Source: Gilvibacter sp. SZ-19
GTDB lineage: Bacteria > Bacteroidota > Bacteroidia > Flavobacteriales > Flavobacteriaceae
Assembly: GCF_002163875.1 (NCBI RefSeq)
Contig: NZ_CP019333.1
Coordinates: 440,864 to 504,863 of the forward strand
Reading direction: 5' to 3'
Length of the DNA: 64,000 nt
Part shown: positions 19,043 to 34,073 of the stretch, in pieces
Layout: the number at the start of each line of letters is the position of its first letter
Position numbering within the stretch: position 1 is the first letter of the stretch
Notes under the pieces: generated by a model
Told to the model about the DNA's origin: nothing
The model's input: only the letters and a program-made list of their open reading frames with translations
The model's database searches: none
Translations under genes and position numbers: made by a program

Positions 19043-19118
19043 CTACGAACGGAATTTTAATTAACAAAAAACTAGGGTAGCGCATTGGAGGTGGAACACA
19101 CCATTATATACGCAAAAT

Positions 19119-19155
19119 GGTTTAGGCCCATCCCGCATTCGGGAAGGCCTAAACC
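19119..19155 (-). terminator. Hairpin between rplL and rpoB (attenuator or processing site)
   Basis: GGTTTAGGCC (19119-19128) pairs with GGCCTAAACC (19146-19155), and TCCCG/CGGGA extends the stem inside, leaving a CATT-like loop. On the minus strand it is followed only by a short CCATTTTG, so full termination is unlikely. Its place, after rplL and before rpoB, is where E. coli has a partial terminator and an RNase III site. I infer a role in setting the ratio of ribosomal protein to polymerase transcripts. Confidence 0.65.
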
Positions 19156-19180
19156 TTAGGGTTGGCTAACTGCCGGGAGC

Positions 19181-19558
19181 TTACTTAAGCTCAACCTCAG
19201 CGCCAGCTTCTTCTAACTGAGCTTTTAGTGCTTCAGCTTCGTCTTTAGCTACACCTTCTTTAATTGGAGAAGGAGCGTTATCAACTAGTTCCTTAGCGTC
19301 TTTAAGACCAGCACCTGTCAATTCTTTAACTAGTTTTACTACAGCTAGTTTAGAACCTCCAGCGGCTTTAAGGATTACGTCGAATTCTGACTTTTCCTCA
19401 GCGGCGTCTCCACCAGCAGCACCACCACCAGCAGCAACAGCTACAGCTGCAGCAGCAGGCTCAATACCGTACTCTTCTTTTAGGATGTCAGCTAACTCGT
19501 TTACCTCTTTTACAGTAAGGTTAACTAATTGTTCTGCGAATTCTTTTAAATCTGCCAT
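19181..19558 (-). CDS. rplL: 50S ribosomal protein L7/L12
   Basis: The 125-residue stalk protein recruits translational GTPases to the ribosome. The N-terminal dimerisation helix ([20 protein letters not shown]) is followed by an Ala/Gly-rich hinge near residues 36-52. The globular C-terminal domain then carries the usual [29 protein letters not shown] and the ending AEVELK. It lies 54 bases after rplJ, the order expected for the L10-L7/L12 stalk genes, and before the rplL-rpoB hairpin. Confidence 0.98.
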
Positions 19559-19612
19559 TTTCTATCGTTTTAATAAAATTGTATTCTAAGTGTTTGATTT
19601 TTCGTTTTGTGC

Positions 19613-20134
19613 TTATCCTTCGCGCTCAGAAAGTGTCTTAACAATTCCTGCGATGGTACCACCACTCGATTTAAGAGCAGAGATAACATTCTTAGCAGGC
19701 GATTGCAACAATCCGATGATGTCGCCGACAAGCTCTTCTTTAGACTTGATTTCAACTAGAGTATCTAATTGGTCATCGCCAATAAAGATGGCCTCTTCGA
19801 TGAAAGCACCTTTAAGAATAGGACGATCCGCTTTCTTACGGAACTCCTTGATCACCTTTGCGGGAGCGTTTCCAGTTTCAGAGATCATCAATGAGGTGTT
19901 GCCTTTAAGCACGCCTGCTAGATCTCCAAAGTCCTTGTCACTGCTCTCCATTGCTTTTTCAAGCAAGGTGTTCTTAACCACTGACAACTTAACGCCAGCT
20001 TTAAAGCATGCACGTCTTAGGTTGCTAGTTGTACCTGCGTCCAATCCTGAGATATCTGCCAAATAAACTACAGAGTTCTCAGCTAGCTGTGCAGTCAAAT
20101 CCTGAATAACTTGTGATTTTTCTTCTCTTGTCAT
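19613..20134 (-). CDS. rplJ: 50S ribosomal protein L10
   Basis: L10 (173 residues) anchors the L7/L12 dimers to 23S rRNA. The start MTREEKSQVIQDLTAQLAEN and the KNTLLEKA and KGAFIEEA segments are typical. The C-terminal helix that carries the L7/L12 dimers is present. Only 15 bases separate it from rplA, so there is no room here for the long structured L10-binding leader that precedes rplJ in enterobacteria. Any autoregulation would have to act elsewhere. Confidence 0.97.
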   Translation of the reverse strand: MTREEKSQVIQDLTAQLAENSVVYLADISGLDAGTTSNLRRACFKAGVKLSVVKNTLLEKAMESSDKDFGDLAGVLKGNTSLMISETGNAPAKVIKEFRKKADRPILKGAFIEEAIFIGDDQLDTLVEIKSKEELVGDIIGLLQSPAKNVISALKSSGGTIAGIVKTLSEREG

Positions 20135-20149
20135 TGTCTATGGGTTTTA

Positions 20150-20845
20150 CTACTCAGCAAATCTCTTGGTGTCTACACTCACTCCAGGACTCATAGTACT
20201 GGACATGTAAATGCTCTTGATGTATACACCTTTGGCCGCTTGAGGCTTTAACTTTACTAATGTGGTTATTAATTCGCGGGCGTTTCCAGCGATCTTTTCT
20301 GCGTCAAATGACGACTTTCCGATCGCAGCGTGAACGATACCGGTCTTATCTACTTTAAAGTCGATCTTACCGCCTTTTACGTCTTGCACCGCTTTAGCAA
20401 CGTCCATTGTTACTGTACCAGTCTTTGGGTTTGGCATAAGTCCACGAGGTCCTAGAATACGTCCTAGTGGTCCTAACTTACCCATTACGCTTGGCATGGT
20501 TACAATTACGTCAACGTCTGTCCATCCTCCTTTAATCTTATCGAGGTACTCGTCTAATCCAACGAAATCAGCTCCTGCAGCAGTAGCTTCGGCCTCCTTA
20601 TCTGGAGTTACCAAGGCCAATACTTTTACATCTTTACCAGTACCGTGTGGAAGTGTCACTACGCCGCGAACCATTTGGTTAGCTTTACGTGGGTCAACAT
20701 TCAAACGAACTGCAAGATCTACAGAGGCGTCAAAGTTCACGTTGGTGATCTCTTTTATTAAAGCAGAAGCTTCGGTTAAGCTGTAGTCCTTGTTAGCGTC
20801 TACCTTTCCGCGAGCTTCCTTTTGCTTTTTGGTCAATTTTGCCAT
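20150..20845 (-). CDS. rplA: 50S ribosomal protein L1
   Basis: The 231-residue protein forms the mobile L1 stalk at the ribosomal E site. Typical motifs are [19 protein letters not shown] near residue 45, the segment [20 protein letters not shown] and then TGTVT in the middle, and [19 protein letters not shown] at the end. It is 21 bases downstream of rplK. In other bacteria L1 represses its own rplKA transcript by binding a 23S-like stem; I did not identify such a stem here. Confidence 0.98.
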
Positions 20846-20866
20846 GATCCTGTTTTCTTTAAATCA

Positions 20867-21304
20867 TTAAAAAGGGGCTGTTCCTTTAATTTTAACTCCC
20901 ATGGATCTTGCAGTACCAGCTACCATTTTCATGGCAGACTCGATTGTAAATGCGTTTAAATCCGGCATTTTGTCTTCTGCAATAGTTTTCACCTGATCCC
21001 AGGAAATTGTGGCTACTTTTCGCACGTGTGGTTCACCAGAGCCTTTTTTGACTTTGGCTGCCTCAAGGATCTGTACAGCTGCTGGAGGGGTCTTAATTAC
21101 AAACTCGAAAGATTTGTCCTTATAAACCGTGATCACAACAGGTAATACTTTACCCTGCTTATCTTGAGTTCTACCGTTGAATTGCTTGCAGAACTCCATG
21201 ATGTTAACACCTGCGGCACCTAAAGCTGGTCCAACTGGTGGTGACGGGTTAGCCGCTCCACCTCGAACCTGTAACTTTACGACTTTATCTACTTCTTTTG
21301 CCAT
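20867..21304 (-). CDS. rplK: 50S ribosomal protein L11
   Basis: L11 (145 residues) forms the GTPase-associated centre with 23S rRNA. The N-terminal [20 protein letters not shown] with the proline pairs and [16 protein letters not shown] are diagnostic. The C-terminal rRNA-binding part ends in [12 protein letters not shown]. It begins the rplK-rplA-rplJ-rplL series and follows nusG by 74 bases. Confidence 0.98.
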
Positions 21305-21378
21305 TGTTTACATTTTAGGTCGATTCTTCACTGTTGGAAGCTCTGGAAGAATCAGTTTATTCGCGTAACAGTCTTTTA

Positions 21379-21933
21379 CTAAATTTTTTCTACTTGCATA
21401 TAGCTGAGTTCAAGTGGTGTCTTACGTCCGAAGATCTTCACCATCACTTCTAGCTTGCGTTTTTCTTCGTTGATCTTCTCTACGGTTCCGTTGAAGCCGT
21501 TGAAAGGACCATCGATAACTTTTACAGTCTCTCCTACTACATAAGGAATGTTCAGGTTTTCATCTTCGATAGCCAATTCGTCTACCTTACCTAACATCCT
21601 GTTCACTTCGGACTGTCTTAACGGCACAGGGTCTCCCCCTTTGGTCTCTCCTAAGAAACCAATTACACCGTTAATAGATTTTATAATGTGTGGTATCTCT
21701 CCTGCGAGGTTCGCATTGATTATGATATACCCCGGAAAGTACACACGTTCTTTACTAATTTTTTTTCCGTTGCGGATCTGAATAACCTTCTCGGTCGGAA
21801 CCAGAACTTGCTCGATATAATCTTGCAGATTCAAGCGGGCTACTTCACTCTCGATGTAGTTCTTGATCTTGTTCTCTTGTCCGCTAACCGAACGAACAAC
21901 ATACCACTTCTTAGTATTCTTTGTTTCTGTCAT
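21379..21933 (-). CDS. nusG: Transcription termination/antitermination protein NusG
   Basis: NusG (184 residues) binds RNA polymerase, suppresses pausing and links it to Rho or the ribosome. The N-terminal NGN domain starts KWYVVRSVSGQENKIKNYIE and contains RVYFPGYIIINANL. The C-terminal KOW domain contains GETVKVIDGPFNGFNGTVEK. It is 10 bases after secE, the conserved arrangement in most bacteria. Confidence 0.98.
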   Translation of the reverse strand: MTETKNTKKWYVVRSVSGQENKIKNYIESEVARLNLQDYIEQVLVPTEKVIQIRNGKKISKERVYFPGYIIINANLAGEIPHIIKSINGVIGFLGETKGGDPVPLRQSEVNRMLGKVDELAIEDENLNIPYVVGETVKVIDGPFNGFNGTVEKINEEKRKLEVMVKIFGRKTPLELSYMQVEKI

Positions 21934-21943
21934 TCTGCAGCGT

Positions 21944-22132
21944 TTATCCCTTGATTAGTTTAAAGTATTGCTCGATCACTCCGGAGAAAACTGTGTCTAC
22001 TCCCCATGTGGCCAAAGCCAGCACAACAGAAAATACCGCAACAATAACAGTAAGTCGTTGAGCCTCAGACAACGGTGTCCAAGTCACGTGATTTCTAAGC
22101 TCGTTATACGACTCTTTAATATATTCTATCAT
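21944..22132 (-). CDS. secE: Preprotein translocase subunit SecE
   Basis: A 62-residue single-span membrane protein that stabilises the SecY channel. I place the start at the ATG 22130-22132 (MIEYIKESYNELRNHVTWTP). The longer open frame upstream would read through the tRNA-Trp gene. The conserved amphipathic part (ELRNHVTWTPLSEAQRLT) is followed by a hydrophobic span, VIVAVFSVVLALATWGVDTV. The gene lies between tRNA-Trp and nusG. Confidence 0.95.
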   Translation of the reverse strand: MIEYIKESYNELRNHVTWTPLSEAQRLTVIVAVFSVVLALATWGVDTVFSGVIEQYFKLIKG

Positions 22133-22147
22133 TGTTCTTGTGTTTTG

Positions 22148-22220
22148 CACGGGTTGAGAGACTCGAACTCCCGACACCTGGTTTTGGAGACCAGTGCTCT
22201 ACCAACTGAGCTAAACCCGT
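22148..22220 (-). tRNA. trpT: tRNA-Trp (CCA anticodon)
   Basis: The minus strand folds into a full cloverleaf: acceptor ACGGGTT/AACCCGT, D arm with AGTTGGTAGA, anticodon stem around CTCCAAA, T loop TTCGAGT on a GGGAG/CTCTC stem. The anticodon is CCA. It lies 15 bases upstream of the secE start, a common position in this phylum. Confidence 0.96.
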
Positions 22221-22226
22221 AGATAA

Positions 22227-22265
22227 AAGTCAAGGTGTACCGCGTTTACGGGACACCTTTGACTT
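22227..22265 (-). terminator. Hairpin between tuf and tRNA-Trp
   Basis: AAGTCAAGGTGT (22227-22238) pairs with ACACCTTTGACTT (22253-22265) with one bulged base, and an inner CCG/CGG extends it. On the minus strand it is followed by a short TTTTATC run. It may be a weak terminator that uncouples the tRNA-tuf transcript from secE-nusG-rpl, or a processing stem for the 5' end of tRNA-Trp. Confidence 0.6.
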
Positions 22266-22289
22266 ATATATGTTATCTACTGCTTAGAC

Positions 22290-23477
22290 TTAGTCTAGGA
22301 TTTCAGTAACCTGACCAGCTCCAACAGTTCTACCACCTTCACGGATAGCGAAACGCAATCCTACGTTAAGTGCGATAGGTTGAATCAAATCTACAGTGAT
22401 GGTAAGGTTATCACCTGGCATTACCATTTCAACACCGTCAGGAAGGTTGATGTTTCCTGTTACGTCAGTTGTACGTACGTAGAACTGAGGACGGTAGTTG
22501 TTGTGGAATGGAGTGTGACGTCCACCTTCTTCTTTCTTAAGGATATAAACCTCGGCTTTGAATTTAGCGTGAGGAGTTACAGAACCTGGCTTACAGATTA
22601 CCATACCTCTTTTGATCTCAGTCTTTTCAATACCACGTAGAAGGATACCTACGTTATCTCCAGCTTCTCCGCGATCTAGGATCTTACGGAACATCTCAAC
22701 ACCAGTAATAGTAGAAGTCAATTTCTCAGCTCCCATTCCGATGATGTCTACAGCGTCACCAGTGTTGGCAACTCCAGTCTCGATACGACCAGTGGCAACA
22801 GTACCACGACCAGTAATAGAGAATACATCTTCGATTGGCATCAAGAATGGCTTATCAACGTCACGCTGAGGAAGCTCGATCCAGTTATCAACAGCATCCA
22901 TAAGCTCCATTACAGTGTCAACCCACTTTTGCTCACCGTTAAGTGCACCAAGAGCAGAACCAGCGATAACAGGACCATTGTCACCGTCATACTCGTAGAA
23001 GCTCAATAGGTCACGGATCTCCATCTCTACTAGCTCAAGTAGCTCCTCATCGTCCACCATATCCACTTTGTTCATGAATACAACGATACGAGGAATACCA
23101 ACCTGACGTCCTAGAAGGATGTGCTCGCGAGTTTGTGGCATAGGACCATCTGTAGCAGCAACTACAAGAATAGCACCGTCCATCTGTGCAGCACCAGTTA
23201 CCATGTTCTTAACGTAGTCGGCGTGACCTGGACAGTCAACGTGTGCGTAGTGACGGTTAGCCGTCTGATACTCTACGTGAGAGGTGTTAATAGTAATACC
23301 TCTTTCTTTTTCTTCTGGAGCGTTATCGATAGAGTCGAAAGAACGCAACTCAGACAATCCTGCGTTGGCTAGTACAGTTGTAATAGCGGCAGTAAGGGTA
23401 GTTTTCCCGTGGTCAACGTGTCCAATAGTACCGATGTTCAAGTGCGGTTTGGAACGATCGAAAGTTTCCTTTGCCAT
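22290..23477 (-). CDS. tuf: Elongation factor Tu
   Basis: EF-Tu (395 residues) delivers aminoacyl-tRNA to the ribosome. The G domain has GHVDHGKTT near residue 19, RGITI in switch I, DCPGHADY in switch II and NKVD. Domain II follows, and domain III ends [15 protein letters not shown]. The gene sits directly after four tRNA genes and before tRNA-Trp-secE, as in the E. coli thrU-tyrU-glyT-thrT-tufB unit. No internal anomaly is visible. Confidence 0.98.
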
Positions 23478-23609
23478 GTTTATTAATTTTTAATCTTAAT
23501 TATATTAGTGTTCAAATTTTAAATCTCTTTTGAATCCAGACCGTACAAAACACAAGATACTTACGTGCGCTTGGTGGTTAATTCAAAGAAGCAGCTTTCA
23601 GCTACCTAG

Positions 23610-23681
23610 AGCCAATGACGGGAATTGAACCCGTGACCTCTTCCTTACCAAGGAAACGCTCTACCCCTGAGCTACATCGGC
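23610..23681 (-). tRNA. thrT: tRNA-Thr (GGT anticodon)
   Basis: The minus strand gives acceptor GCCGATG/CATTGGC (one G-T pair), D arm AGGGGTAGA, anticodon loop CTTGGTAA and T loop TTCAATT. The anticodon is GGT. It is the last tRNA before tuf, with a 132-base spacer to the tuf start. Confidence 0.96.
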
Positions 23682-23796
23682 GATTGCGGGTTGGGCCGTC
23701 AGAGACCCGCTTCGTACTTCTCGATTTATTACTAAACCGATAAGTACAGCAAAAATCGCACCCTCTTGAGAAGATGCGATTTCGGCTTTACTTTTG

Positions 23797-23869
23797 AGCG
23801 GGAGACCGGGTTCGAACCGGCGACATTCAGCTTGGAAGGCTGACGCTCTACCAACTGAGCTACTCCCGC
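23797..23869 (-). tRNA. glyT: tRNA-Gly (TCC anticodon)
   Basis: The minus strand folds with acceptor GCGGGAG/CTCCCGC, D arm AGTTGGTAGA, anticodon stem CAGCC/GGCTG-like around TTCCAA and T loop TTCGAAC. The anticodon is TCC. It lies between the tRNA-Tyr side spacer and tRNA-Thr(GGT). Confidence 0.96.
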
Positions 23870-23996
23870 GTTTTTTCTTGCTGTGCAAGATTGGTTATCC
23901 AGTACGTCGAAATTTTAGTGCTGCAAAATTAATGAAAATTTGCCAGAAATAAAACAAGCGAAAAGAGGTTTTATTGAAGACCGAAATTCGCCTTTA

Positions 23997-24173
23997 GTTT
24001 CACCCTTCGGATTACTCGGCTAACGCCTAGTATAACCCTTCTGAAACACTTTCATGTTTCACCATTCGGATTACCCGGCTGACGCCTCGTATCATCCTTC
24101 TGAAACACTTTTATGTTTCACCATTCGGATTACTCGGTTGACGCCTCGTGATCTTCGGTGGTGAACCATCTTT
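23997..24173. repeat. Three tandem 59-bp repeats in the tRNA-Tyr/tRNA-Gly spacer
   Basis: The 362-base gap between tRNA-Tyr and tRNA-Gly carries no gene. It holds units starting GTTTCACC at 23997, 24056 and 24115, a period of exactly 59 bases. The first two units run from GTTTCA to a matching TGAAAC, so each can fold as a long hairpin, with small inner inverted repeats (GGC/GCC and CGG/CCG). The third unit is degenerate at its far end. A separate strong hairpin follows at 24184-24216. The function is unknown. Confidence 0.85.
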
Positions 24174-24183
24174 ATTTTTTTTC

Positions 24184-24216
24184 GTCGGCTTACAAAAGCG
24201 AGCTTTTGACGCCGAC
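24184..24216 (-). other. Strong hairpin in the tRNA-Tyr/tRNA-Gly spacer
   Basis: GTCGGC (24184-24189) pairs with GCCGAC (24211-24216), and inside it CAAAAGC pairs with GCTTTTG around a two-base GA spacer. On the minus strand the stem is followed by GAAAAAAAATAAAG, not a T run, so it is not a classical terminator in the operon direction. It could be a tRNA processing element. Confidence 0.6.
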
Positions 24217-24231
24217 CTCTAAAAAATAAAG

Positions 24232-24314
24232 TGGGGAGAGCAGGATTCGAACCTGCGAAGGTAAAAACCAACAGATTTACAGTCTGTCCTCGTTGGCCGC
24301 TTGAGTATCTCCCC
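24232..24314 (-). tRNA. tyrU: tRNA-Tyr (GTA anticodon)
   Basis: A class II tRNA with a long variable arm, as expected for tRNA-Tyr. Acceptor GGGGAGA/TCTCCCC, anticodon stem CAGA/TCTG around CTGTAAA, T loop TTCGAAT. The anticodon is GTA. It follows tRNA-Thr(TGT) by 35 bases. Confidence 0.96.
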
Positions 24315-24349
24315 GATAGCTCTAAAACATCGATTTTAAAGAACTTAAG

Positions 24350-24423
24350 AGCCGATGGAGGGACTCGAACCCACGACCTGCTGATTACAAATCAGCTGCT
24401 CTAGCCAGCTGAGCTACATCGGC
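24350..24423 (-). tRNA. thrU: tRNA-Thr (TGT anticodon)
   Basis: First gene of the tRNA-tuf operon on the minus strand. Acceptor GCCGATG/CATCGGC, D arm AGCTGGCTAGA, anticodon stem CTGAT/ATCAG around TTGTAA, T loop TTCGAGT. The anticodon is TGT. Confidence 0.96.
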
Positions 24424-24446
24424 GCTTTTAAACTTCCTTTTTGATC

Positions 24447-24475
24447 AAAAAAAAGTCCGCTATTTCTAACGGACT
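24447..24475 (-). terminator. Intrinsic terminator after hpf, upstream of the tRNA operon
   Basis: AGTCCGTTA pairs with TAGCGGACT around a GAAA tetraloop (24454-24475), and on the minus strand a run of T follows directly. It is a textbook intrinsic terminator. It lies between hpf and tRNA-Thr(TGT). A promoter-like box sits immediately upstream of it at 24477-24484. Confidence 0.85.
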
Positions 24476-24476
24476 G

Positions 24477-24484
24477 CAAATGTA
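24477..24484 (-). promoter_or_regulatory. Candidate -7 box in front of the tRNA operon
   Basis: TACATTTG followed by CA on the minus strand fits TAnnTTTG. The upstream -33 position reads TTTT rather than TTTG. If used, the transcript would begin with the terminator hairpin at 24454-24475, which is odd; the true operon promoter could instead be downstream of it. Confidence 0.35.
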
Positions 24485-24526
24485 TAATAAATTTCTTTTT
24501 TAAAAAACTTTTTGCAAAAAATTAGC

Positions 24527-24829
24527 CTAAAGATGGGCACGTTGTTTTTGCTTTCGTTTTTTGAGTTGGCGTTCTAAGGAATGAGCGCACTCATCTACAC
24601 CCTCTTCGAACTTCCTACACTCCTTTTTTACAATAACATCATCGCCAGGAATACTCAAAAGAACTTCAACGATTTTGTTCTCTTTTTGACTGGTGTTTTG
24701 CACTTTCAGAAAAACATCGGCAAAAATAATACGGTCGTAGAATGTTTCTAACTTCGACAAACGTTTTTTAATGAATTCAATTAGTTTGATGTCCGCATCA
24801 AAATTTGGAGTCTGCACATTAACTTTCAT
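24527..24829 (-). CDS. hpf: Ribosome hibernation/stability factor, short HPF/RaiA type
   Basis: The product binds the 30S subunit and helps dimerise or silence idle ribosomes. With the ATG at 24829 it has 100 residues and starts MKVNVQTPNFDADIKLIEFI, the family-typical beginning. An in-frame start eight codons earlier (24853) is less likely. The core LSKLETFYDRIIFADVFLKV and the basic tail RQLKKRKQKQRAHL fit the short HPF form; the C-terminal dimerisation domain of long HPF is absent. It follows xerC by 35 bases and ends before a strong terminator. The neighbourhood rpsU-xerC-hpf is one I know from other Bacteroidota. Confidence 0.9.
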   Translation of the reverse strand: MKVNVQTPNFDADIKLIEFIKKRLSKLETFYDRIIFADVFLKVQNTSQKENKIVEVLLSIPGDDVIVKKECRKFEEGVDECAHSLERQLKKRKQKQRAHL

Positions 24830-24864
24830 ACGCGGGTAATTTAAGTTAGACAAAAGATCGCCCT

Positions 24865-25758
24865 CTACGATTTGTTCCTCGGATGCGCCTTGCTGTGAAT
24901 CTTTTTAAGTTCGGCTACACTGTTGTGGGTGTACACCTGAGTGGAAGCCAAACTCGCATGACCTAAAAGCTCTTTGACCGCATTGAGGTCCGCACCTTCA
25001 TTGAGCAAGTGCGTTGCAAAGGAATGCCGCAAAATATGCGGGCTTTTCTTAACCTTTGAGGACGTCATACTAAAATACGAATTTATAATTCGGTAAACAA
25101 GCCTTTCGTACATTTTAGCACCCTTAGCGGTAACAAATAACCAGGGGGTCTCTGCGCCGTTTAACAGCTCCGCTCTTTCGTGATCTATATAACTGCGGAG
25201 TTCTATCAGCAACGAAGACAAAAGTGGCACTATCCGCTCTTTATTGCGCTTTCCTAAAACTTTTATAGAAGCCTGTCCAAAGTCCACATCAGACAGCTTT
25301 AAATTGATCAGCTCAGCGCGACGCATGCCGGTGGCGTAAAAAAGGCTTACTACCAATCTATCGCGAACGGGTTCAAATCCGCCTTGAGCTTCTAACTCGA
25401 CCAAGGTCTGTTCTATCTCCGCTTGCGAAAAAGGCACTTGTAGTTTCTTCGGAGTCTTGAGGGCTTTGTGTTGCGCCAAGGGTGAAGCAGATATGGAACC
25501 GATCTTTAAAAGGAATTTGTAATACGCCTTTAGGGAGGCTACTTTTCTATTGATAGACCTATTGCTTATTTGCTGATCTACCAGAGATACGATCCAAGAA
25601 CGGATCTGCGCGTAGTTCACCGACGCCAACTCACTTTGCCCATATTCCGACTCAATAAATGCACTGAAGGCCTCTAGGTCTCTTGAGTATGCAGCTAGCG
25701 TATGATGAGAATAATTCTTCTCCAGGTTCAGATACGCAATGAATTCGGTTAGGGCCAT
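24865..25758 (-). CDS. xerC: Tyrosine recombinase of the XerC/XerD family
   Basis: The 297-residue enzyme probably resolves chromosome dimers at dif. The N-terminal SAM-like core-binding domain (residues 1-90) is followed by the catalytic domain with R146 (GMRRAEL), a lysine in GKRNKER (170 or 173), H241 and R244 (HILRHSFATH), H267 (LLGHASL) and the nucleophile Y276 (VYTHNS). All catalytic residues are present. The gene lies between rpsU and hpf, a housekeeping context, and there are no attachment sites or cargo genes, so it is not a mobile-element integrase. The rpsU terminator T-run ends directly at its start codon. Confidence 0.92.
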   Translation of the reverse strand: MALTEFIAYLNLEKNYSHHTLAAYSRDLEAFSAFIESEYGQSELASVNYAQIRSWIVSLVDQQISNRSINRKVASLKAYYKFLLKIGSISASPLAQHKALKTPKKLQVPFSQAEIEQTLVELEAQGGFEPVRDRLVVSLFYATGMRRAELINLKLSDVDFGQASIKVLGKRNKERIVPLLSSLLIELRSYIDHERAELLNGAETPWLFVTAKGAKMYERLVYRIINSYFSMTSSKVKKSPHILRHSFATHLLNEGADLNAVKELLGHASLASTQVYTHNSVAELKKIHSKAHPRNKS

Positions 25759-25802
25759 AAAAAAATCCGCTGGTCGTGTAAAGTTACACTTTCCAGCGGA
25801 TT
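25757..25802 (-). terminator. rpsU terminator ending at the xerC start codon
   Basis: AATCCGCTGG (25764-25773) pairs with CCAGCGGATT (25793-25802), and inside it GTGTAA pairs with TTACAC. On the minus strand the stem is followed by a run of T that runs straight into the ATG of xerC at 25758. The stem is 23 bases past the rpsU stop. Confidence 0.88.
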
Positions 25803-25825
25803 GTTTATACTGTTGTCCTAACGAC

Positions 25826-26020
25826 CTAGATCTCTTCCTGATCTCTAAGATGTTGGATGTATTGTGCTTTTTGGATCTGCGCTCTGCGCTTTACAGAAGG
25901 CTTAGTAAACTGCTGACGTGAACGTAGTGCACGCATAGTTCCTGTTCTGTCAAACTTACGTTTGAAACGCTTTAGCGCTCTGTCGATATTTTCTCCGTCT
26001 TTAACTGGTATAATTAACAT
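25826..26020 (-). CDS. rpsU: 30S ribosomal protein bS21
   Basis: bS21 (64 residues) binds near the 3' end of 16S rRNA. I start it at the ATG 26018-26020 (MLIIPVKDGENIDRALKRFK), because this is the conserved beginning and a strong ribosome binding site stands directly before it. The longer frame from 26053 would translate that site. The basic body (KFDRTGTMRALRSRQQF and then KRRAQIQKAQYIQHLRDQEE) matches the family. It is followed by a terminator and then xerC. In Flavobacterium johnsoniae bS21 helps hide the anti-Shine-Dalgarno, so this gene's own site may serve feedback control. Confidence 0.96.
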   Translation of the reverse strand: MLIIPVKDGENIDRALKRFKRKFDRTGTMRALRSRQQFTKPSVKRRAQIQKAQYIQHLRDQEEI

Positions 26021-26026
26021 AGTGTC

Positions 26027-26036
26027 ATCACCTCCT
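26027..26036 (-). promoter_or_regulatory. Strong Shine-Dalgarno of rpsU
   Basis: The minus strand carries AGGAGGTGAT ending six bases before the rpsU ATG. All ten bases are complementary to the usual 16S rRNA tail (ATCACCTCCT). None of the neighbouring genes I inspected has anything comparable. Confidence 0.92.
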
Positions 26037-26050
26037 CTCTTTAGCGGATG

Positions 26051-26082
26051 CAAAGATAGAAAGTTAATTTTTATATCTGCAA
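26051..26082 (-). promoter_or_regulatory. Candidate rpsU promoter
   Basis: On the minus strand TATCTTTG (26051-26058), followed by CA, is the -7 box, and TTG (26080-26082) lies 21 bases upstream as a -33 candidate. The leader would be about 25 bases and consist mainly of the Shine-Dalgarno. Confidence 0.5.
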
Positions 26083-26096
26083 CTTCTTTTCGAAAA

Positions 26097-27530
26097 TTAT
26101 TCTTTGAACAAGGAAGCTCTTGTACTCAGATCGCGAATTAGTTTTTCTTCCTCCTCACTTTCTAGCAGCACATTGTAGCTTTTCCAAAACTCTTTGTTAT
26201 AAGGTCTAGGAATAAAGATATCGTCTGTCCAATCTTGGCTCAGGGCATCGGTTATCACCTCATTGTCACGAATGATCTCTGTGAACACGATCTCTTGAAC
26301 CGTATAATAGAATTGTTCTTCACGTTCTCTTTTGATCTGTTCGGCTGTTTTTTCTTGCTGATCCGAACTGCGATTTCCAATATTGACCAGTTTAGGGGTC
26401 TCGTAATAGATATAGTTCGGATACCATTTGTCTTCAAACTCCTTGTAGGTAATTACCAGCTTGTGATTGAGCGTAGTACCGAACAAACTCTTAGAGCGTC
26501 TGCGTTGGGCGTCTGAGGCAGCGATGAGTTCGTATTCGATTCGTTTTATAGCGTAGGTCTTCCAGTCGATATAGATCCAACCTTTAGGTTCGAATCCTTC
26601 ATTGTAGATCCCAGGTGTATTAAGTCCGACGTAATCAGAACCCTTCTCAATTCTGATCTTATAGACCTTGCGGCCGTCGTCCACCAAAACAGTGTCTAAG
26701 CTAAACTGATGCCGCCCTAACATCTTATCACCTAGGATAGCAAACCTATCGCCAGCATTGCGAACCATATTGAGTTTACCTTTAAAAAGGTTACCCAAAC
26801 CATTAACGCGGTTGTCGTTCCATTTTATGGCTTCTACCAACGATGCGGTTGCTATAGTATCTCTTCTGAGGTTATCGGCTTTGATGCGCATGCCTTTGGC
26901 GTCGCGCAAATAAGAATAATAGGTGAATAAGCTGTCCACATCTCGCAGATCATAACTCTTGCGATTCTCGTCCACATTCACTTTCAAATAATCTGATCCC
27001 CCTTTGGCGTAGCTGGAATCGTAAAGCGAGATCGCGCTCTCAATAAGCCATTTATATTCGATCTGATTACGCTCTTTGTGACGCAAAAATCCTTTTTGAA
27101 TATAAGAACTGTCTGGTAAGTTCCGCGGCAATCGCTCCAAGGCTCTTATCACAATATCATTTCCGGTTGTGGGTCTTGGGTCTGCAACCACAAGAACCTC
27201 ATCCAAAGAGGCAATGTCTTCTTCTAAGAAAATGTCTTCTGTAGGGTCGTAATCTGCAATGGCAGTTTTAAAACTCTTAAATCCAATAGAAGAGATAACC
27301 AGGGTGTCGTTCACATGTTTGGGCGGCACCACCAAAGAGAACTTTCCGTCGATATTACTTACGGTACCGATATAGGAATCCTTGACATAGACACTGGCGC
27401 TTTCAATGGGCATAAAAGTGGCGAAGTCTACGATCTTTCCGTTAAGTACTTTCTCTTGTTGTCCGTAAGTGAATCCGCAGGCTAAGAAAACACCTGCAAA
27501 GAGTAATTTTTTAAATAGATTGAGCTGCAT
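26097..27530 (-). CDS. Secreted or outer-membrane protein with carboxypeptidase-like regulatory domain
   Basis: The product has 477 residues. A signal peptide (FKKLLFAGVFLACGFTYGQ) is followed by a CarboxypepD_reg-like beta-sandwich at about residues 28-105 (LNGKIVDFATFMPIESASVY, then GTVSNIDGKFSLVVP). The remaining ~370 residues have no fold I can name with certainty; aromatic and charged strands such as GWIYIDWKTYAIKRIEYELI suggest a beta-rich periplasmic or outer-membrane part. Proteins of this layout are common in flavobacteria and of unknown function. The gene stands alone between rpsU and the acyl-CoA dehydrogenase repeats, with a TAACTTTG box 50 bases upstream. Confidence 0.82.
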   Translation of the reverse strand: MQLNLFKKLLFAGVFLACGFTYGQQEKVLNGKIVDFATFMPIESASVYVKDSYIGTVSNIDGKFSLVVPPKHVNDTLVISSIGFKSFKTAIADYDPTEDIFLEEDIASLDEVLVVADPRPTTGNDIVIRALERLPRNLPDSSYIQKGFLRHKERNQIEYKWLIESAISLYDSSYAKGGSDYLKVNVDENRKSYDLRDVDSLFTYYSYLRDAKGMRIKADNLRRDTIATASLVEAIKWNDNRVNGLGNLFKGKLNMVRNAGDRFAILGDKMLGRHQFSLDTVLVDDGRKVYKIRIEKGSDYVGLNTPGIYNEGFEPKGWIYIDWKTYAIKRIEYELIAASDAQRRRSKSLFGTTLNHKLVITYKEFEDKWYPNYIYYETPKLVNIGNRSSDQQEKTAEQIKREREEQFYYTVQEIVFTEIIRDNEVITDALSQDWTDDIFIPRPYNKEFWKSYNVLLESEEEEKLIRDLSTRASLFKE

Positions 27531-27580
27531 GCATGTAGGTTTAAATCTCCCATTGTTTTACAGGGAGCTTCATTCATGCT

Positions 27581-27588
27581 CAAAGTTA
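27581..27588 (-). promoter_or_regulatory. Candidate -7 box for the 26097-27530 gene
   Basis: TAACTTTG on the minus strand fits TAnnTTTG. A short inverted repeat CTCCC/GGGAG (27547-27567) lies in the resulting leader. No convincing -33 element is seen. Confidence 0.35.
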
Positions 27589-27609
27589 CACAAATCGACT
27601 AATTATGTG

Positions 27610-27813
27610 GCAGGCTTGTAGACTTTCCCGTCAATGACCATTTTAGCGATGCCATTGGGCATCTTCGCAAAAATGCATGCCCTCTAAGTTGCGGGTTTAT
27701 ATTGCTTCCCGTCAATCACCATTTTTGCGATGCCATTGGGCATCTTCGCAAAAATGCATGTCCTCTAAGTTGCGGGTTTATATTGCTTCCCGTCAATGAC
27801 CATTTTTGCGATG
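27610..27813 (-). repeat. 81-bp tandem repeats of the acyl-CoA dehydrogenase 3' end
   Basis: The last codons of the acyl-CoA dehydrogenase gene (27772-27813) recur at 27691 and 27610, each shifted by exactly 81 bases. Every copy encodes IAKMVIDGK-x-YKPAT and then a stop (TAG, TAG, TAA). The two inner units are nearly identical. The outermost ends with a synonymous but different DNA sequence (GKVYKPAT, TAA). Each joint contains a quasi-palindrome in which CATTTTTGC and GATGCC pair with GGCATC and GCAAAAATG around CAAT. The copies lie after the functional stop and are not translated as part of the enzyme. Confidence 0.9.
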
Positions 27814-28931
27814 ATCTCGCGTAAGATCTCAGAAGTACCTCCTCCGATAGGTCCTAGCCTACTATCGCGAAGTAATCGCGCCATAGGATATTCTTCCATA
27901 TAGCCGTAACCCCCTAGCATCTGCAGGCAGTCATAGGCAACTTCGTCTGCAATTTTTGTAGAAATCAGTTTAGACATGCTGGCCTCTTTAACCACATACT
28001 CCCCGTCTCCCAATCGTTTTGCAACGGTATAGTTAAAGGTTTTGCAAACTTCTACTTCGGAGGCTAACTGTGCGATCTTATGACGCAACGCCTGGAATTC
28101 AGAAATGGACTTCCCAAAGGCCTTGCGGTCTTTCATGTATTGAATGGTGTACTCTAAGGCCCATTCCGAGCGCGCGTGGGCATTTATCCCCATAATAAGA
28201 CGCTCACTAGCAAAATGCTGCATGATGTATTGGAATCCTTTGTTCTCTTCTCCCAACATATTGCTCACAGGAACTTTTACATCGGTAAAGGATATCTCTC
28301 CTGTATCGCTTGCACGCCAACCCAATTTGTCAAGTTTGGTCGCTGCAACACCCTCCATGCTTCTATCTACAATGAATAAACTAATACCCTTGTTGCCCAA
28401 AGAGGGATCCGTTTTAGCTGCTACCACCAAATAGTCGCTGTAGACACCATTAGTGATAAAGGTCTTGGAACCGTTCAGAATATAGTGATCGCCTTGCTTT
28501 ACAGCCGTAGATCGCATTCCAGATACATCAGAACCTCCAAAGGGCTCTGTCACACAAAGACAACCTATCATTTCGCCGTTAATACTCTTGGCCAAGTAAT
28601 GTTGCTTTTGTTCTTCATTGCCTTCTGCGTTCAAGTGGGTCATTGCCAAATAGGCATGCGCCCACATTGCAGCCGCAAACCCACCGGATTGCACGCGCTG
28701 TAACTCCTCTAGAAAGATCACCGTGTAGAAGAAATCTAAGCCCATACCGCCGTAGGCTTCCGGATATGCAATCCCAAAGAATCCCATCTCACCCATTTTT
28801 GTCCAGATCTCCGGATCAATGGTACCACTGGCTTCCCAGTCTTCAATATGCGGCACCACTTCCTTTTGCAAGAAGTCGCGCAAACTGTCTCTGAAAAGAT
28901 CGTGTTCTTCGGTAAAATAAGTAGTATTCAT
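27765..28931 (-). CDS. Acyl-CoA dehydrogenase
   Basis: The 388-residue flavoenzyme catalyses the first alpha,beta-oxidation of acyl-CoA. The N-terminal helical domain contains EAYGGMGLDFFYTVIFLEEL. FAD-binding signatures CVTEPFGGSDVSGMRSTA (near residue 126) and LGGYGYMEEYPMARLLRDSR are present. The position used as catalytic Glu in medium-chain enzymes reads GGGTSEIL with Gly, while E243 in FASERLIMG matches the catalytic Glu of long-chain and isovaleryl-CoA dehydrogenases. This points to LCAD/IVD-type geometry; substrate chain length cannot be told from sequence. It stands alone, with a palindrome in its leader and a repeated 3' end. Confidence 0.93.
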   Translation of the reverse strand: MNTTYFTEEHDLFRDSLRDFLQKEVVPHIEDWEASGTIDPEIWTKMGEMGFFGIAYPEAYGGMGLDFFYTVIFLEELQRVQSGGFAAAMWAHAYLAMTHLNAEGNEEQKQHYLAKSINGEMIGCLCVTEPFGGSDVSGMRSTAVKQGDHYILNGSKTFITNGVYSDYLVVAAKTDPSLGNKGISLFIVDRSMEGVAATKLDKLGWRASDTGEISFTDVKVPVSNMLGEENKGFQYIMQHFASERLIMGINAHARSEWALEYTIQYMKDRKAFGKSISEFQALRHKIAQLASEVEVCKTFNYTVAKRLGDGEYVVKEASMSKLISTKIADEVAYDCLQMLGGYGYMEEYPMARLLRDSRLGPIGGGTSEILREIIAKMVIDGKQYKPAT

Positions 28932-28958
28932 AGGTTGCAGAATGCTTTCGTTTTTACT

Positions 28959-28978
28959 GAACTCAAACGTTTGAGTTC
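28959..28978. promoter_or_regulatory. 20-bp perfect palindrome before acyl-CoA dehydrogenase, possible operator
   Basis: GAACTCAAACGTTTGAGTTC is its own reverse complement. It lies 28 bases before the start codon and about 40 bases downstream of a TATATTTG box. No T run follows it in the direction of transcription, so it is not a terminator. A site for a TetR- or GntR-like dimer is plausible, but no such regulator is in the window. Confidence 0.5.
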
Positions 28979-29006
28979 CTTATTAAAAAAAAGGCGAATA
29001 GGGCTA

Positions 29007-29861
29007 TTATTCGAATTGCAAATATACGGCAATTCCCGCTAACCAATCCGCAGTAATACCCTCTAACATAAGCAAGTCTTCTGGGGCAGAAATCCCATCT
29101 CGTAACCGTCTGAATATCACCAACTCCTTAGCCAATTCGAAATTAATTCCAGGCAAAGTTGCCAAGTCAGAAGCAGCTGCTGTATTGAAATCGATCTTAC
29201 TAATGGTGTCCTTAGTGGCAATGGTGAAATGTTTAAGTAGTTCTGCTCTCACTTCAGGTTTTAGTCCATAGATCAGCCGCAATTGCAAACTGTCGGAATA
29301 TGGACCATAGCGCTGCTTAAAACGGAGAATACGCCCTGCCAAAACTGGACCTATCCCGTAAACTGCCTCTAACTCCTCTTGGCTGGCGGCGTTCAGCTCC
29401 TTAACTTTTTCAGGGCGATCCCGGAAGGTGTTGGTCCGACTTTGCTGCGTCCATGCAGGGAATCTAAAATAGCTTTTCATTTCGGCCAGCAAGGAATCTG
29501 AGACTCCAGTGACTCGCTGAAAATCCGCAGCAGATCGCAACCACTTGTCTTGAGCGCGAAAACTTTCTAAAGCAGTCAAAGCACTATCGCTAATACCCCA
29601 CAGATAAGCATTGTACGGACTCAGAAAATTAGGGTTGAATTTATAGCGTCTCGGCTTGGCCTTGTCCAGCTTTAAGGAATCCAATGAGGCTCGCTCTTTC
29701 TGAGATACGGATGCATTGAGATCAACTGGTATATGCTCTGGTCTTTCACCACCGTGAATCAGCCATAAAAGACCTGTAAATGCAATTAGGAATAAGGCAA
29801 CACTTAGCTGGTCGCGCTTGTAGAATAGCAGTTGTTTTTTGAGTAAAAAAAATACCCCCAT
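29007..29861 (-). CDS. Membrane-anchored helix-hairpin-helix protein, ComEA-like
   Basis: A protein of 284 residues with one N-terminal membrane span (VALFLIAFTGLLWLIHG, about 21-37), a linker, and ComEA-type helix-hairpin-helix motifs: LNAASQEELEAVYGIGPVLA near the middle and FNTAAASDLATLPGINFELA near the C-terminus, with a third related segment before them. Such motifs bind DNA non-specifically, and ComEA homologues act in DNA uptake. In Bacteroidota the role is not established. The start is uncertain: the only ATG (29861) lies in the stem and T-run of the preceding gene's terminator. Confidence 0.82.
   Translation of the reverse strand: MGVFFLLKKQLLFYKRDQLSVALFLIAFTGLLWLIHGGERPEHIPVDLNASVSQKERASLDSLKLDKAKPRRYKFNPNFLSPYNAYLWGISDSALTALESFRAQDKWLRSAADFQRVTGVSDSLLAEMKSYFRFPAWTQQSRTNTFRDRPEKVKELNAASQEELEAVYGIGPVLAGRILRFKQRYGPYSDSLQLRLIYGLKPEVRAELLKHFTIATKDTISKIDFNTAAASDLATLPGINFELAKELVIFRRLRDGISAPEDLLMLEGITADWLAGIAVYLQFE
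29019..29026 (-). promoter_or_regulatory. Candidate -7 box for acyl-CoA dehydrogenase
   Basis: TATATTTG followed by CA on the minus strand, inside the last codons of the upstream helix-hairpin-helix gene. A TTGG lies 17 bases further upstream. Confidence 0.4.
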
Positions 29862-29887
29862 GTCAAATCGTTTTGCATAGGGGTATT
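29844..29887 (-). terminator. Terminator of the symporter gene overlapping the next gene's start
   Basis: AATACCCCCATG (29851-29862) pairs with CATAGGGGTATT (29876-29887) with one mismatch, and a run of T follows on the minus strand. The downstream arm contains the ATG of the helix-hairpin-helix gene, and the T run forms its first Phe/Leu codons. Confidence 0.8.
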
Positions 29888-29910
29888 AGTAAAAAAGTTA
29901 GTCTGGTCGT

Positions 29911-31560
29911 CTAGTTGGACGATTTAAGTCCTTTAATGGCAGCCAGGTATTTCTTCATTTCCTCGCGCACCTTAGGGAACAGGAAGAATAGTCCTATCAT
30001 GTTCGGGAACACCAAGGCAAGGATCATCGCATCGGAGAATTTGATCACCGCATCCAAAGTGGCAGCAGCACCAATCACCACGAACAATAGGAACATGATT
30101 TTATAGATAAGGTCGGCAGTTTTTCCTTTACCGAACAGATATTTCCAAGACTGTAGGCCGTAGTAAGACCAAGAGATCATGGTCGAGAAGGCGAACAAAA
30201 CAATCGCGATTGTCAATACATAAGAGAAGCCTGGGATAACCGAGTCGAATGCGCGGGAGGTCAAGTCCACTCCTCCGAGCTGCTCTCCGGTTCCGTTTAA
30301 GATCACGTTAGAACCTTCTACTGCTCCGTATTCAAATACACTTTGCAAATTGGTTCCGTCGATATTAAAGAAGATGATCACCAAGGCAGTCATAGTACAA
30401 ATTACTACCGTATCAATGAATGGCTCCAAAAGGGCAACTACACCCTCACTAGCCGGATATTTTGTTTTTACTGCGGAGTGAGCAATTGCTGCGGACCCTG
30501 CTCCAGCCTCGTTAGAGAAAGCCGCGCGTTGGAATCCAACAATAAGCACTCCGACAAAACCACCTAAACCAGCCATAGGCGTGAAGGCTCCTTTAAAGAT
30601 CAGCCCAAAAGCATCTCCGATATAAGAGATATTGGCAAAGATGATGATCAAGGCTGCTAGTACATAGATACCCGCCATAAATGGAACGATCTTCTCTGTA
30701 ATTTTAGCGATACGCTTGATACCCCCAATAATTACAATTCCTACTAGAACTGCAAGAATAACTCCAATGATGAATCCGGTAGCTCCGCCCTCTAATCCCA
30801 TAAGCGAAGAAAGCTGCACTGTGGCCTGGTTAGACTGAAATGCGTTTCCTCCTCCAAAGGAAGCTCCGACACAAAGAATGGCGAACAATCCGGCAAGCAC
30901 TTTACCAAGACCGCCCATGTTCTGCTCCTTAAGTCCTTTAGACAAATAGTACATCGGACCACCGTAAACGGTTCCATCAGGACCAACATCACGATACTTA
31001 ACACCCAAGGTACATTCCACAAATTTGGTAGCCATACCAATAAGACCACAAACGATCATCCAGAAAGTTGCTCCAGGACCACCCAAGGCGATCGCTACAG
31101 CAACCCCAGCAATGTTTCCTAAACCTACGGTACCAGAAACAGCTGTGGCCAAAGCCTGAAAGTGAGATACCTCTCCTTCTTGACTTTCGTCACGAATGGT
31201 ATCTGGCAAATCGCCATCTACAATATTTACGTCTGATTTTTCAACTCCGTGTCCGTCCGCACCTTCAATGTCGTCGTATTTCCCGCGCACCGTATTAATG
31301 GCCAACGGAAATCTTCGGATGCTTGGCACTTTGAAATAAACTGTAAAGAAAGTTGCTCCTAAAACCAATAGAATTACTACTACAGAAACATTGTATTCGC
31401 CTAAGGGAACCGTGGTTAGAACAAGATTCTCCCACCAAACGGCAGCGGGCATAACCGCATCGTTTATCTTTTCGTCGATGCCGGCTTCTTGGGCCTCTTG
31501 AGCGAAAGAAAATAAAGGTGATAATAAAGCGAATGCTAACAGAAGTACTCTTTTGTACAT
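29911..31560 (-). CDS. Sodium:alanine/glycine symporter, AGCS family
   Basis: The 549-residue inner-membrane transporter should import alanine or glycine with Na+. The family signature GGPGATFWMIVCGLIGMATK is present at about residues 159-178, along with SGTVGLGNIAGVAVAIALGG and GFQRAAFSNEAGAGSAAIAH in the second half. About eleven membrane spans can be seen. Unusually for an E. coli-like AGCS protein it begins with a signal-peptide-like stretch (LLLAFALLSPLFSFAQ) and has a charged insert (about 95-130) after the first membrane span; both are features I associate with Bacteroidota members. It is probably a single-gene unit. Confidence 0.92.
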   Translation of the reverse strand: MYKRVLLLAFALLSPLFSFAQEAQEAGIDEKINDAVMPAAVWWENLVLTTVPLGEYNVSVVVILLVLGATFFTVYFKVPSIRRFPLAINTVRGKYDDIEGADGHGVEKSDVNIVDGDLPDTIRDESQEGEVSHFQALATAVSGTVGLGNIAGVAVAIALGGPGATFWMIVCGLIGMATKFVECTLGVKYRDVGPDGTVYGGPMYYLSKGLKEQNMGGLGKVLAGLFAILCVGASFGGGNAFQSNQATVQLSSLMGLEGGATGFIIGVILAVLVGIVIIGGIKRIAKITEKIVPFMAGIYVLAALIIIFANISYIGDAFGLIFKGAFTPMAGLGGFVGVLIVGFQRAAFSNEAGAGSAAIAHSAVKTKYPASEGVVALLEPFIDTVVICTMTALVIIFFNIDGTNLQSVFEYGAVEGSNVILNGTGEQLGGVDLTSRAFDSVIPGFSYVLTIAIVLFAFSTMISWSYYGLQSWKYLFGKGKTADLIYKIMFLLFVVIGAAATLDAVIKFSDAMILALVFPNMIGLFFLFPKVREEMKKYLAAIKGLKSSN

Positions 31561-31648
31561 AGTAATTGATTTAGTTTGCGTTTTTCAGGCTCACAAGATG
31601 CTAAAAAAAACTGCGAATTCAAATTTTTGGCCGTTAAAAAGTGGGCTG

Positions 31649-32680
31649 TTAAACCTTGTAAACTTCCTTTAAACGCTCGATTTGCGGCGGCCTTCCAATA
31701 AGGATGAGTTTGGACTCTTTTTTAAGGATCATTTCTGGCTCCGGATTCACAACATACTCGCCGTTAGGAGATTTATATCCGATTATAGAACAGCCTGTAC
31801 GTTTGCGAAGATCAAGATCGCGGATGGCCATTTCTATACCATCTGGGCAGATGTTCTCAAAAGAGACCTGCTCTACGTTTATACTATCCTCTTCTCCGGA
31901 AACTGTAAGATTATCTAAAAATTCGACCAGATCTGGAACCACTACTAGCGATGCCATATGCTCTCCGCCTATCTTGTCTGGCATGATCACATTGTCGGCT
32001 CCGGCCAATTTGAGTTTTTGATAACTGGTCTCTTCGGTGGCACGGCTAATGATTCGCAGCTTGGGATTGATCTGTCGGGCAGACAAGACAATAAATAAAT
32101 TATCTGCATCGCTCGGCAAGGCACAGATCAAGGTTGAAGCTCTATCGATACCTGCCTGATAAAGCACCTCATCCTCGTCTGCATTTCCAAGGACCATGAG
32201 TATGTCGTCGTCAAGAACGGCTCTAGAAACTATTTCTTCGTCAATTTCCACTACAACAAATGGTTTGTTATAGGCGCGTAGTTTTTGCACGGCTTGACGC
32301 CCGTTTCGGCCATAACCACAGACAATTACATGTCCACTTAAAGATTCAATTTGCTTTTTCACTCTTTTCTGGGTAAGGTTTCCAATATTGCTTTTACCGA
32401 GCAAATACTCGGAGATCACCGTAATGGCATATCCCACAATAAAGATACTGGATATGATCAATACAGAGGTAAATATCTTTTCGCTGGGTCCTAGCGGCTC
32501 CACCTCTTGGAATCCAACGGTGGTAATAGTAATAATGGTCATGTAGACCGCATCTATCCAACTGTAGTCCGCATAGAATTTAAACCCGAAAACTCCTGCA
32601 ATAAAAACCACAAGCAACAAGCCAAGGGCAATGTTGATCTTAGATCTAAAATATCGTGTCAGCAGGGTAACTTTAGGCAT
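31649..32680 (-). CDS. Two-span potassium channel with cytoplasmic RCK (TrkA-N/TrkA-C) domain
   Basis: With the ATG at 32680 the product has 343 residues; an in-frame GTG six codons upstream is possible. Two membrane spans flank a pore helix, and the filter reads TTVGFQ (residues 54-58 are T-V-G-F-Q) where most channels have TVGYG or TVGFG. The cytoplasmic part begins with a Rossmann fold, HVIVCGYGRNGRQAVQKL (near residue 110), and ends with a TrkA-C domain. The layout is that of MthK/Kch-type channels gated by a ligand on the RCK ring. The pspC gene lies downstream in opposite order 32 bases upstream on the same strand and may be cotranscribed. Confidence 0.9.
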   Translation of the reverse strand: MPKVTLLTRYFRSKINIALGLLLVVFIAGVFGFKFYADYSWIDAVYMTIITITTVGFQEVEPLGPSEKIFTSVLIISSIFIVGYAITVISEYLLGKSNIGNLTQKRVKKQIESLSGHVIVCGYGRNGRQAVQKLRAYNKPFVVVEIDEEIVSRAVLDDDILMVLGNADEDEVLYQAGIDRASTLICALPSDADNLFIVLSARQINPKLRIISRATEETSYQKLKLAGADNVIMPDKIGGEHMASLVVVPDLVEFLDNLTVSGEEDSINVEQVSFENICPDGIEMAIRDLDLRKRTGCSIIGYKSPNGEYVVNPEPEMILKKESKLILIGRPPQIERLKEVYKV

Positions 32681-32712
32681 AAAGTATTCGGTTGGCACAA
32701 CTGCAAAACCTA

Positions 32713-32940
32713 CTAGAGGTCAAAAACAGAAGTTCGTTTGGTGTAAATTAAGTCTTTTAGTTTAAGCCAAAAAGCCAAGGTGAGATAAATTGCAAATCCG
32801 GCTCCCAAAGTGGCAAAGCTCACGTAGATAAAAAACAGGCGAACACTTTTAGCGCGCATGCCCAAGCGTTCGGCCAAGCGAGAGGACACATAAAACCCTC
32901 GTCGTTCTAGATAATGCCTTAAATCGTAAACCCAATTCAT
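32713..32940 (-). CDS. PspC domain protein
   Basis: This 75-residue protein fits the PspC domain: a polar N-terminus with RLAERLGMRAKSVRLFFIYV and then a hydrophobic span (SFATLGAGFAIYLTLAFWL). In proteobacteria PspC is a membrane sensor of the phage-shock response. Here no pspA, pspB or pspF is nearby and the protein is little more than the domain itself, so the role is open. It lies 32 bases upstream of the K+ channel gene and shares its direction; both follow the terminator of the synthase gene. Confidence 0.82.
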   Translation of the reverse strand: MNWVYDLRHYLERRGFYVSSRLAERLGMRAKSVRLFFIYVSFATLGAGFAIYLTLAFWLKLKDLIYTKRTSVFDL

Positions 32941-32967
32941 AGCTATTGGCCTTTAGTGCAAGATAAG

Positions 32968-32996
32968 AAAACCCCCGATTTTCATCGAGGGTTTTT
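32968..32996 (-). terminator. Terminator after the cysteine/cystathionine synthase gene
   Basis: AAAACCC (32968-32974) pairs with GGGTTTT, and CGAT/ATCG extends the stem with one mismatch. On the minus strand the arm ends in TTTTC. It lies 20 bases past the stop at 33016. Confidence 0.75.
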
Positions 32997-33015
32997 AAGG
33001 TTTTCAAGGGTAAAT

Positions 33016-33996: not shown

Positions 33997-34073
33997 TTGT
34001 GTTTTTAAGACCTGGCAAAGGTACAAAACCCCTCGGTCTTTCCTTAGATAGCTATTCTTTAATTGCTGCGGAT

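Follow-up and report, generated by a model that had tools for sequence, protein, structure and literature searches.

A probable bS21 autoregulation element in front of rpsU in Gilvibacter sp. SZ-19

Introduction

In Flavobacterium johnsoniae, the synthesis of ribosomal protein bS21 is autoregulated through a Shine-Dalgarno (SD) sequence in front of its gene, rpsU, as described from reporters, depletion and purified ribosomes (McNutt et al., 2023; PMC9976891). Mutation or depletion of bS21 raises the translation of an rpsU'-gfp reporter, and a second reporter with a strong SD is also raised by bS21 loss whereas SD-less reporters are not. Initiation on rpsU mRNA is faster for ribosomes devoid of bS21 or of its C-terminal region, and complete ribosomes yield little protein from rpsU'-gfp in vitro. 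According to the passages of that paper on distribution, the autoregulation is widespread in Flavobacteriales and an extended SD is characteristic of rpsU: among 200 Flavobacteriales, a single gene per genome carrying such an SD is the most frequent case, the other ribosomal genes are generally without SD, and about 80% of Flavobacteriales satisfy the two criteria of McNutt et al. (PMC9976891). On the ribosome side, A1534, CCUCC at 1535-1539 and U1544 of the 16S tail are documented (PMC9976891, PMC8710568). Proteins of the bS21 family are also encoded by phages, with Tyr54 in 54 of 61 as reported in PMC9723584.

Here, we analyzed a 64,000-nucleotide stretch of the Gilvibacter sp. SZ-19 genome (contig NZ_CP019333.1), hereafter the window, which contains an rpsU gene preceded by a strong SD.

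Results

The rpsU locus and its pairing with the 16S tail

The gene, its SD and the pairing stretch are as follows.

25826..26020, minus strand: rpsU, encoding ribosomal protein bS21 (64 amino acids plus stop, ATG at 26020-26018, Tyr at residue 54)
26027..26036, minus strand: Shine-Dalgarno AGGAGGTGAT, read directly, AGGAGG being separated from the ATG by 10 nt
26028..26040, minus strand: AGAGAGGAGGTGA, the entire segment that can pair with the 13-nt tail of the 16S rRNA (RNAduplex)
26014..26028, minus strand: out-of-frame ORF of four codons (ATG ACA CTA TGT TAA), read directly

The rpsU product matches PF01165 in a profile search (E 7.9e-20) and corresponds to the single bS21 match in the genome. 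Two further members of the genus encode this protein with 100% identity, and no match to rpsU was obtained in a fourth genome (G101, 92% complete). Its residue 54 is Tyr, a feature of the autoregulated system. An in-frame TTG at 26053 was rejected as the start codon because the aligned relatives use the ATG, which is preceded by CTAAAGAGAGGAGGTGATGACACT.

For the pairing calculations, the 16S tail (nt 1532-1544) was written as UCACCUCCUUUCU; beyond A1534, CCUCC at 1535-1539 and U1544, its letters are assumed, because searches of the available genome data with the RF00177 profile and a tail pattern did not yield a 16S gene. Across 100 genomes of the family, a pattern search gave one match each in four genomes, none resembling a 16S gene. 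With this partly assumed tail, RNAduplex gives 13 continuous pairs with the rpsU leader, including one G.U, and an energy of -22.1 kcal/mol, so that the ten-base match described in the first-pass annotation stands and is in fact longer. Hence rpsU, at this value and with the tail so defined, lies below the -13 kcal/mol that delimits an extended SD, our energies being from RNAduplex whereas free_scan was used in PMC9976891. The ATG of the four-codon ORF falls within the SD, and this ORF overlaps the rpsU start codon.

Leader, promoter and neighboring genes

The surroundings of the SD comprise the following features.

26021..26045, minus strand: predicted leader of about 25 nt, deduced from the -7 box
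26051..26058, minus strand: TATCTTTG, candidate Bacteroidota-type -7 box (TAnnTTTG), read directly
26080..26082, minus strand: TTG, candidate -33 element, read directly, 21 nt 5' of the -7 box and weak alone
25759..25802, minus strand: terminator-like hairpin and run of seven T 3' of rpsU (region fold -29.9 kcal/mol, z -5.6)
24865..25758, minus strand: xerC-like tyrosine recombinase (PF00589, PF02899), no SD (-3.3 kcal/mol)
24527..24829, minus strand: hpf-like protein (S30AE, PF02482), no SD (+1.0 kcal/mol)

The identity of TATCTTTG depends on TAnnTTTG, which we take to be the Bacteroidota -7 consensus, and the TTG at 26080..26082 was likewise compared with a -33 consensus that we assume. The box was spotted by eye and afterwards counted in relatives: of the 85 family copies with an SD, 84 have a TAnnTTTG 15-60 nt upstream, as do all 80 named relatives (the best 80 of at least 569 found by contig scan, and not a random sample), against 13 of 55 SD-less copies. 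A sigma-70 promoter scan of 24400-27600 did not rise above shuffles (5 found, 5.6 expected). In F. johnsoniae, the native leader of rpsU measures 25 nt (PMC9976891). The leader in the window is weakly structured (z 0.37 for the fold against shuffles). A riboswitch or attenuator in it is unsupported, its folding being no better than that of shuffled sequences, and Rfam at gathering thresholds found five tRNAs and nothing else in 18000-34000.

In an alignment of eight genomes, three of one genus and five hand-picked from genomes with the same leader type, TTTGC in the -7 box shows no variation, nor does the segment extending from AAAGAG up to the start codon, and the DNA further upstream is variable. 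The constancy of the spacer is overstated by this alignment because of that choice of genomes; spacers differ in other relatives, e.g., GGTTGTAGCCC.

On the 3' side, a hairpin followed by a T run was found in 77 of the 80 named relatives under a permissive rule. The T7 run behind the rpsU hairpin directly abuts the xerC ATG, and a T run with an ATG immediately after it also occurs in several relatives among the 12 examples listed.

Rarity of the site in the window and in the genome

The AGGAGG motif occurs in the window at chance frequency (26 found, 26.55 expected). Pairing below -15 kcal/mol was reached by only two of its 1,675 ATGs on both strands, namely that of rpsU and one located 8 nt upstream (-19.7 kcal/mol) that uses the same SD site. 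Among the 86 ORFs of at least 60 codons, the value next after rpsU was -13.4 kcal/mol, at an ORF of 78 codons.

At the scale of the 3.1-Mb genome, the comparison went by motif, with pairing calculated for matched sites rather than for all annotated starts. AGGAGGTGA has 28 sites, and the only one placed 5' of an ATG-started ORF outside any longer open frame is that of rpsU. No enrichment over the reversed control was observed genome-wide for AGGAGGT-N(2-12)-ATG (60 against 60) or for AAAGGAGG-N(3-13)-ATG (9 against 15). Among these 60 and 9 sites, some of which are shared, one plausible gene start was found besides rpsU, that of a class-III aminotransferase (L268, -13.7 kcal/mol) whose AGGAGGT forms part of the final codons of the frame ahead of it. 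The remaining sites of both lists lie within longer open frames or open very short ones; several are in-frame ATGs of long frames with earlier start codons (e.g., L290, -16.0 kcal/mol, and L301, -17.3 kcal/mol), taken as internal without curation. The strongest pairing outside rpsU among the examined sites was -17.3 kcal/mol (L301, L315), in a longer frame, with the nearest ATG alone scored per pattern site, so that a second ATG at 3038507-3038523 carries no separate score. Elsewhere among the sites, L295 (G000:C1:1550408-1550853) is a tandem repeat with four copies of AGGAGGTTGTTTCAAATG at a spacing of 142-143 nt and frames of only 17-19 codons.

The survey of ribosomal protein genes beyond the window covered rpsF and rpsR individually, and neither has an SD. 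The first-pass annotation had stated that the genome otherwise lacks such SDs and that xerC and hpf are without one, and had named many genes with equal sites as the observation that would speak against its reading. Both statements agree with our results: no equal site was present among those returned by the motif search, and the energies of the two neighboring genes are those listed above.

Conservation in relatives

The rpsU leader pairs at -17.5 kcal/mol or stronger, and Tyr54 is present, in 80 of the 80 named relatives, i.e., the best 80 of at least 569. In the family set, a bS21 match was obtained in 97 of 100 genomes, the three others (G082, G088, G089) being 82-89% complete, and 96 genomes were readable, with 140 copies. 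Left out of these counts are the copy of G003 (L255), truncated at the end of its contig and not readable, and two weak matches, namely a fragment of G027 (L226) that gave no hit and a stop-containing fragment of G041; G027 and G041 were counted as one-copy genomes. With the SD defined as pairing below -13 kcal/mol (G023 being counted by energy), 85 of the 140 copies carry one. A single copy is present with SD in 46 genomes and without SD in 11, while 34 genomes have two copies and five have three, one of the copies carrying the SD in each case. Every one of these 39 multi-copy genomes (two or three readable genes) thus has exactly one SD-bearing copy.

In a protein tree built on 64 columns, with many forks unresolved, one supported branch (98/96) gathers 92 canonical copies, 85 with SD and seven without. 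None of the other 48 copies, the paralogues, has an SD, the strongest pairing being -6.8 kcal/mol. This division is also visible in the gene neighborhoods, a xerC-like frame lying downstream of 87 of 92 canonical copies and of 0 of 48 paralogues. Instead, 18 paralogues stand behind an rpoD-like frame, five behind a cold-shock-like frame and one has rpoD downstream, with these reference neighbors presumably being rpoD and cold-shock genes from a reading of their sequences and not from a family search; 24 of the 48 have none of the five reference neighbors. In three cold-shock-linked paralogues (L158, L174, L222), a terminator-like hairpin lies just 5' of the bS21 ATG. The extra SD-less genes (L144-L225 and others) occur in 39 family genomes, and a paralogue-type copy stands alone in four genomes (G022, G053, G066, G091). 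Of the 48 paralogues, 44 carry Tyr54 and 34 have Tyr-Ile/Val-Gln at positions 54-56.

The site is not a universal trait, since seven of 92 canonical family copies are without it. All seven belong to genomes of 1.3-1.9 Mb, and Tyr54 is absent in three of them against one of the 85 SD-bearing copies (Fisher p 0.001). Because these three copies form one branch, the joint loss of SD and Tyr54 may be a single event and no conclusion was rested on it. This small-genome branch without rpsU SD and without Tyr54 consists of L229, L240 and L242 (G081, G095, G065).

A phage origin of the SD-bearing copy was also considered and rejected: among the 31 viral loci examined, with seven further phage records left out, none has an extended SD, and the strongest pairing is -8.5 kcal/mol.

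Discussion

Proposed regulation and rival explanations

Directly observed at this locus are the rpsU gene with its extended SD, a layout that is conserved, and Tyr54, and no equal site occurred among those retrieved from the genome. We consider it about 85% probable that the rpsU of the window is the Flavobacteriales bS21 autoregulation element, the regulation having been shown in F. johnsoniae and its operation in Gilvibacter being expected by analogy. In complete 30S subunits, bS21 (with its Tyr54), bS18 and bS6 would keep the 16S tail on the platform, and with this tail hidden, ordinary genes would be translated without Shine-Dalgarno. In subunits lacking bS21, the tail would be freed and could form the 13-base pairing with the short rpsU leader, and rpsU translation would rise until bS21 is replenished. 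The feedback loop proposed in the first-pass annotation is the same as the model of McNutt et al. from F. johnsoniae, and it gains support from the presence here of its testable sequence features, i.e., a site below -13 kcal/mol, Tyr54, rpsR and rpsF without SD, and no equal site among the other sites retrieved from the genome.

A motif such as AGGAGG may arise by chance, all the more so as it is at chance frequency in the window and as SD-ATG patterns are at control level across the genome. However, rpsU is the best of the 1,675 ATGs by a wide margin, and a chance occurrence is contradicted by the conservation of the site in all 80 named relatives and in 85 of the 92 copies on the canonical branch of the family, which leaves this explanation with practically no weight. 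Alternatively, the strong SD could merely ensure a high constitutive translation of rpsU without any regulation by bS21, a view helped by the fact that regulation here rests on analogy with F. johnsoniae. Yet rpsF and rpsR, which likewise need a high output, do without an SD in this genome, as ribosomal genes are generally reported to do in Flavobacteriales (PMC9976891). Besides, the SD is restricted to one bS21 copy in 39 of 39 multi-copy genomes, and complete F. johnsoniae ribosomes made little product from rpsU'-gfp in vitro according to the same source (PMC9976891). We therefore regard constitutive translation as improbable and retain bS21 autoregulation.

Within the autoregulation model, a refinement may be formulated from the out-of-frame ATG at 26028-26026. 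This ATG could act as a decoy for ribosomes with a hidden anti-SD and be buried by SD pairing, which we think is hardly likely; that bS21-less ribosomes would thereby be directed to the rpsU ATG, sharpening the switch, appears just as doubtful. The ATG does form part of the pairing stretch, and the base after GGAGGTGAT is the G that completes ATG in 10 of the 12 leaders from the family and in 18 of the 20 from named relatives. However, an ATG within 14 nt upstream of the start is found in just 12 of the 85 family leaders with an SD and in 19 of the 80 leaders from named relatives, leader ends differ in many relatives, and the carriers of the ATG may share descent.

One SD-bearing copy per genome

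The occurrence of one SD copy in 39 of 39 multi-copy genomes suggests that the bS21 loop may be confined to one lineage of bS21 genes. A further, speculative reading, which we judge unlikely but worth stating, is that in relatives the rpsU SD is an isoform switch, the canonical copy alone sensing bS21-less ribosomes. If so, a paralogue filling the bS21 pocket would occupy the ribosomes and shut down canonical rpsU, paralogues altered at the C-terminus could keep the anti-SD exposed, and the genome of the window, with its one bS21 match, would represent the simple state. The multi-copy relatives could be natural strains in which bS21 isoform exchange might be studied. In the discussion by McNutt et al. 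of groups with extra bS21 genes, Bacteroidota are not named in the part concerned (PMC9976891). The pattern was not found in a literature search of titles and abstract openings, with most subscription journals outside its reach; the one-SD-copy rule is hence offered as an observation not found in print, and not as one proven new.

Comparison with known systems

Because the loop is the published bS21 autoregulation (PMC9976891), the finding is known biology and not new. It adds one more genome, with its own whole-genome pattern check, to a documented case of ribosomes of altered composition choosing their own mRNA. Two details go beyond the published model, namely the out-of-frame ATG in the SD, found in a minority of relatives, and the one-SD-copy rule.

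Phage-encoded bS21, as described in PMC9723584, is a related protein, and the viral loci fetched here are without extended SD, unlike the rpsU of the window. The bS21 paralogues of other phyla mentioned in PMC9976891, e.g., those of Francisella tularensis, resemble the situation in Gilvibacter relatives in that several bS21 genes coexist; they differ from it in that the genome of the window has a single bS21 and its relatives exactly one SD-bearing copy. The closest system is the bS21 autoregulation of F. johnsoniae as presented in PMC9976891. This likeness, drawn by description and not from a letter-by-letter comparison of leaders, includes a short leader, an own promoter, no comparable SD found elsewhere, a gene for bS21 whose extended SD pairs below -13 kcal/mol, and Tyr54. 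The rpsU of the window differs in belonging to another organism, in a leader that ends with GGTGATGACACT and in the out-of-frame ATG carried within its SD.
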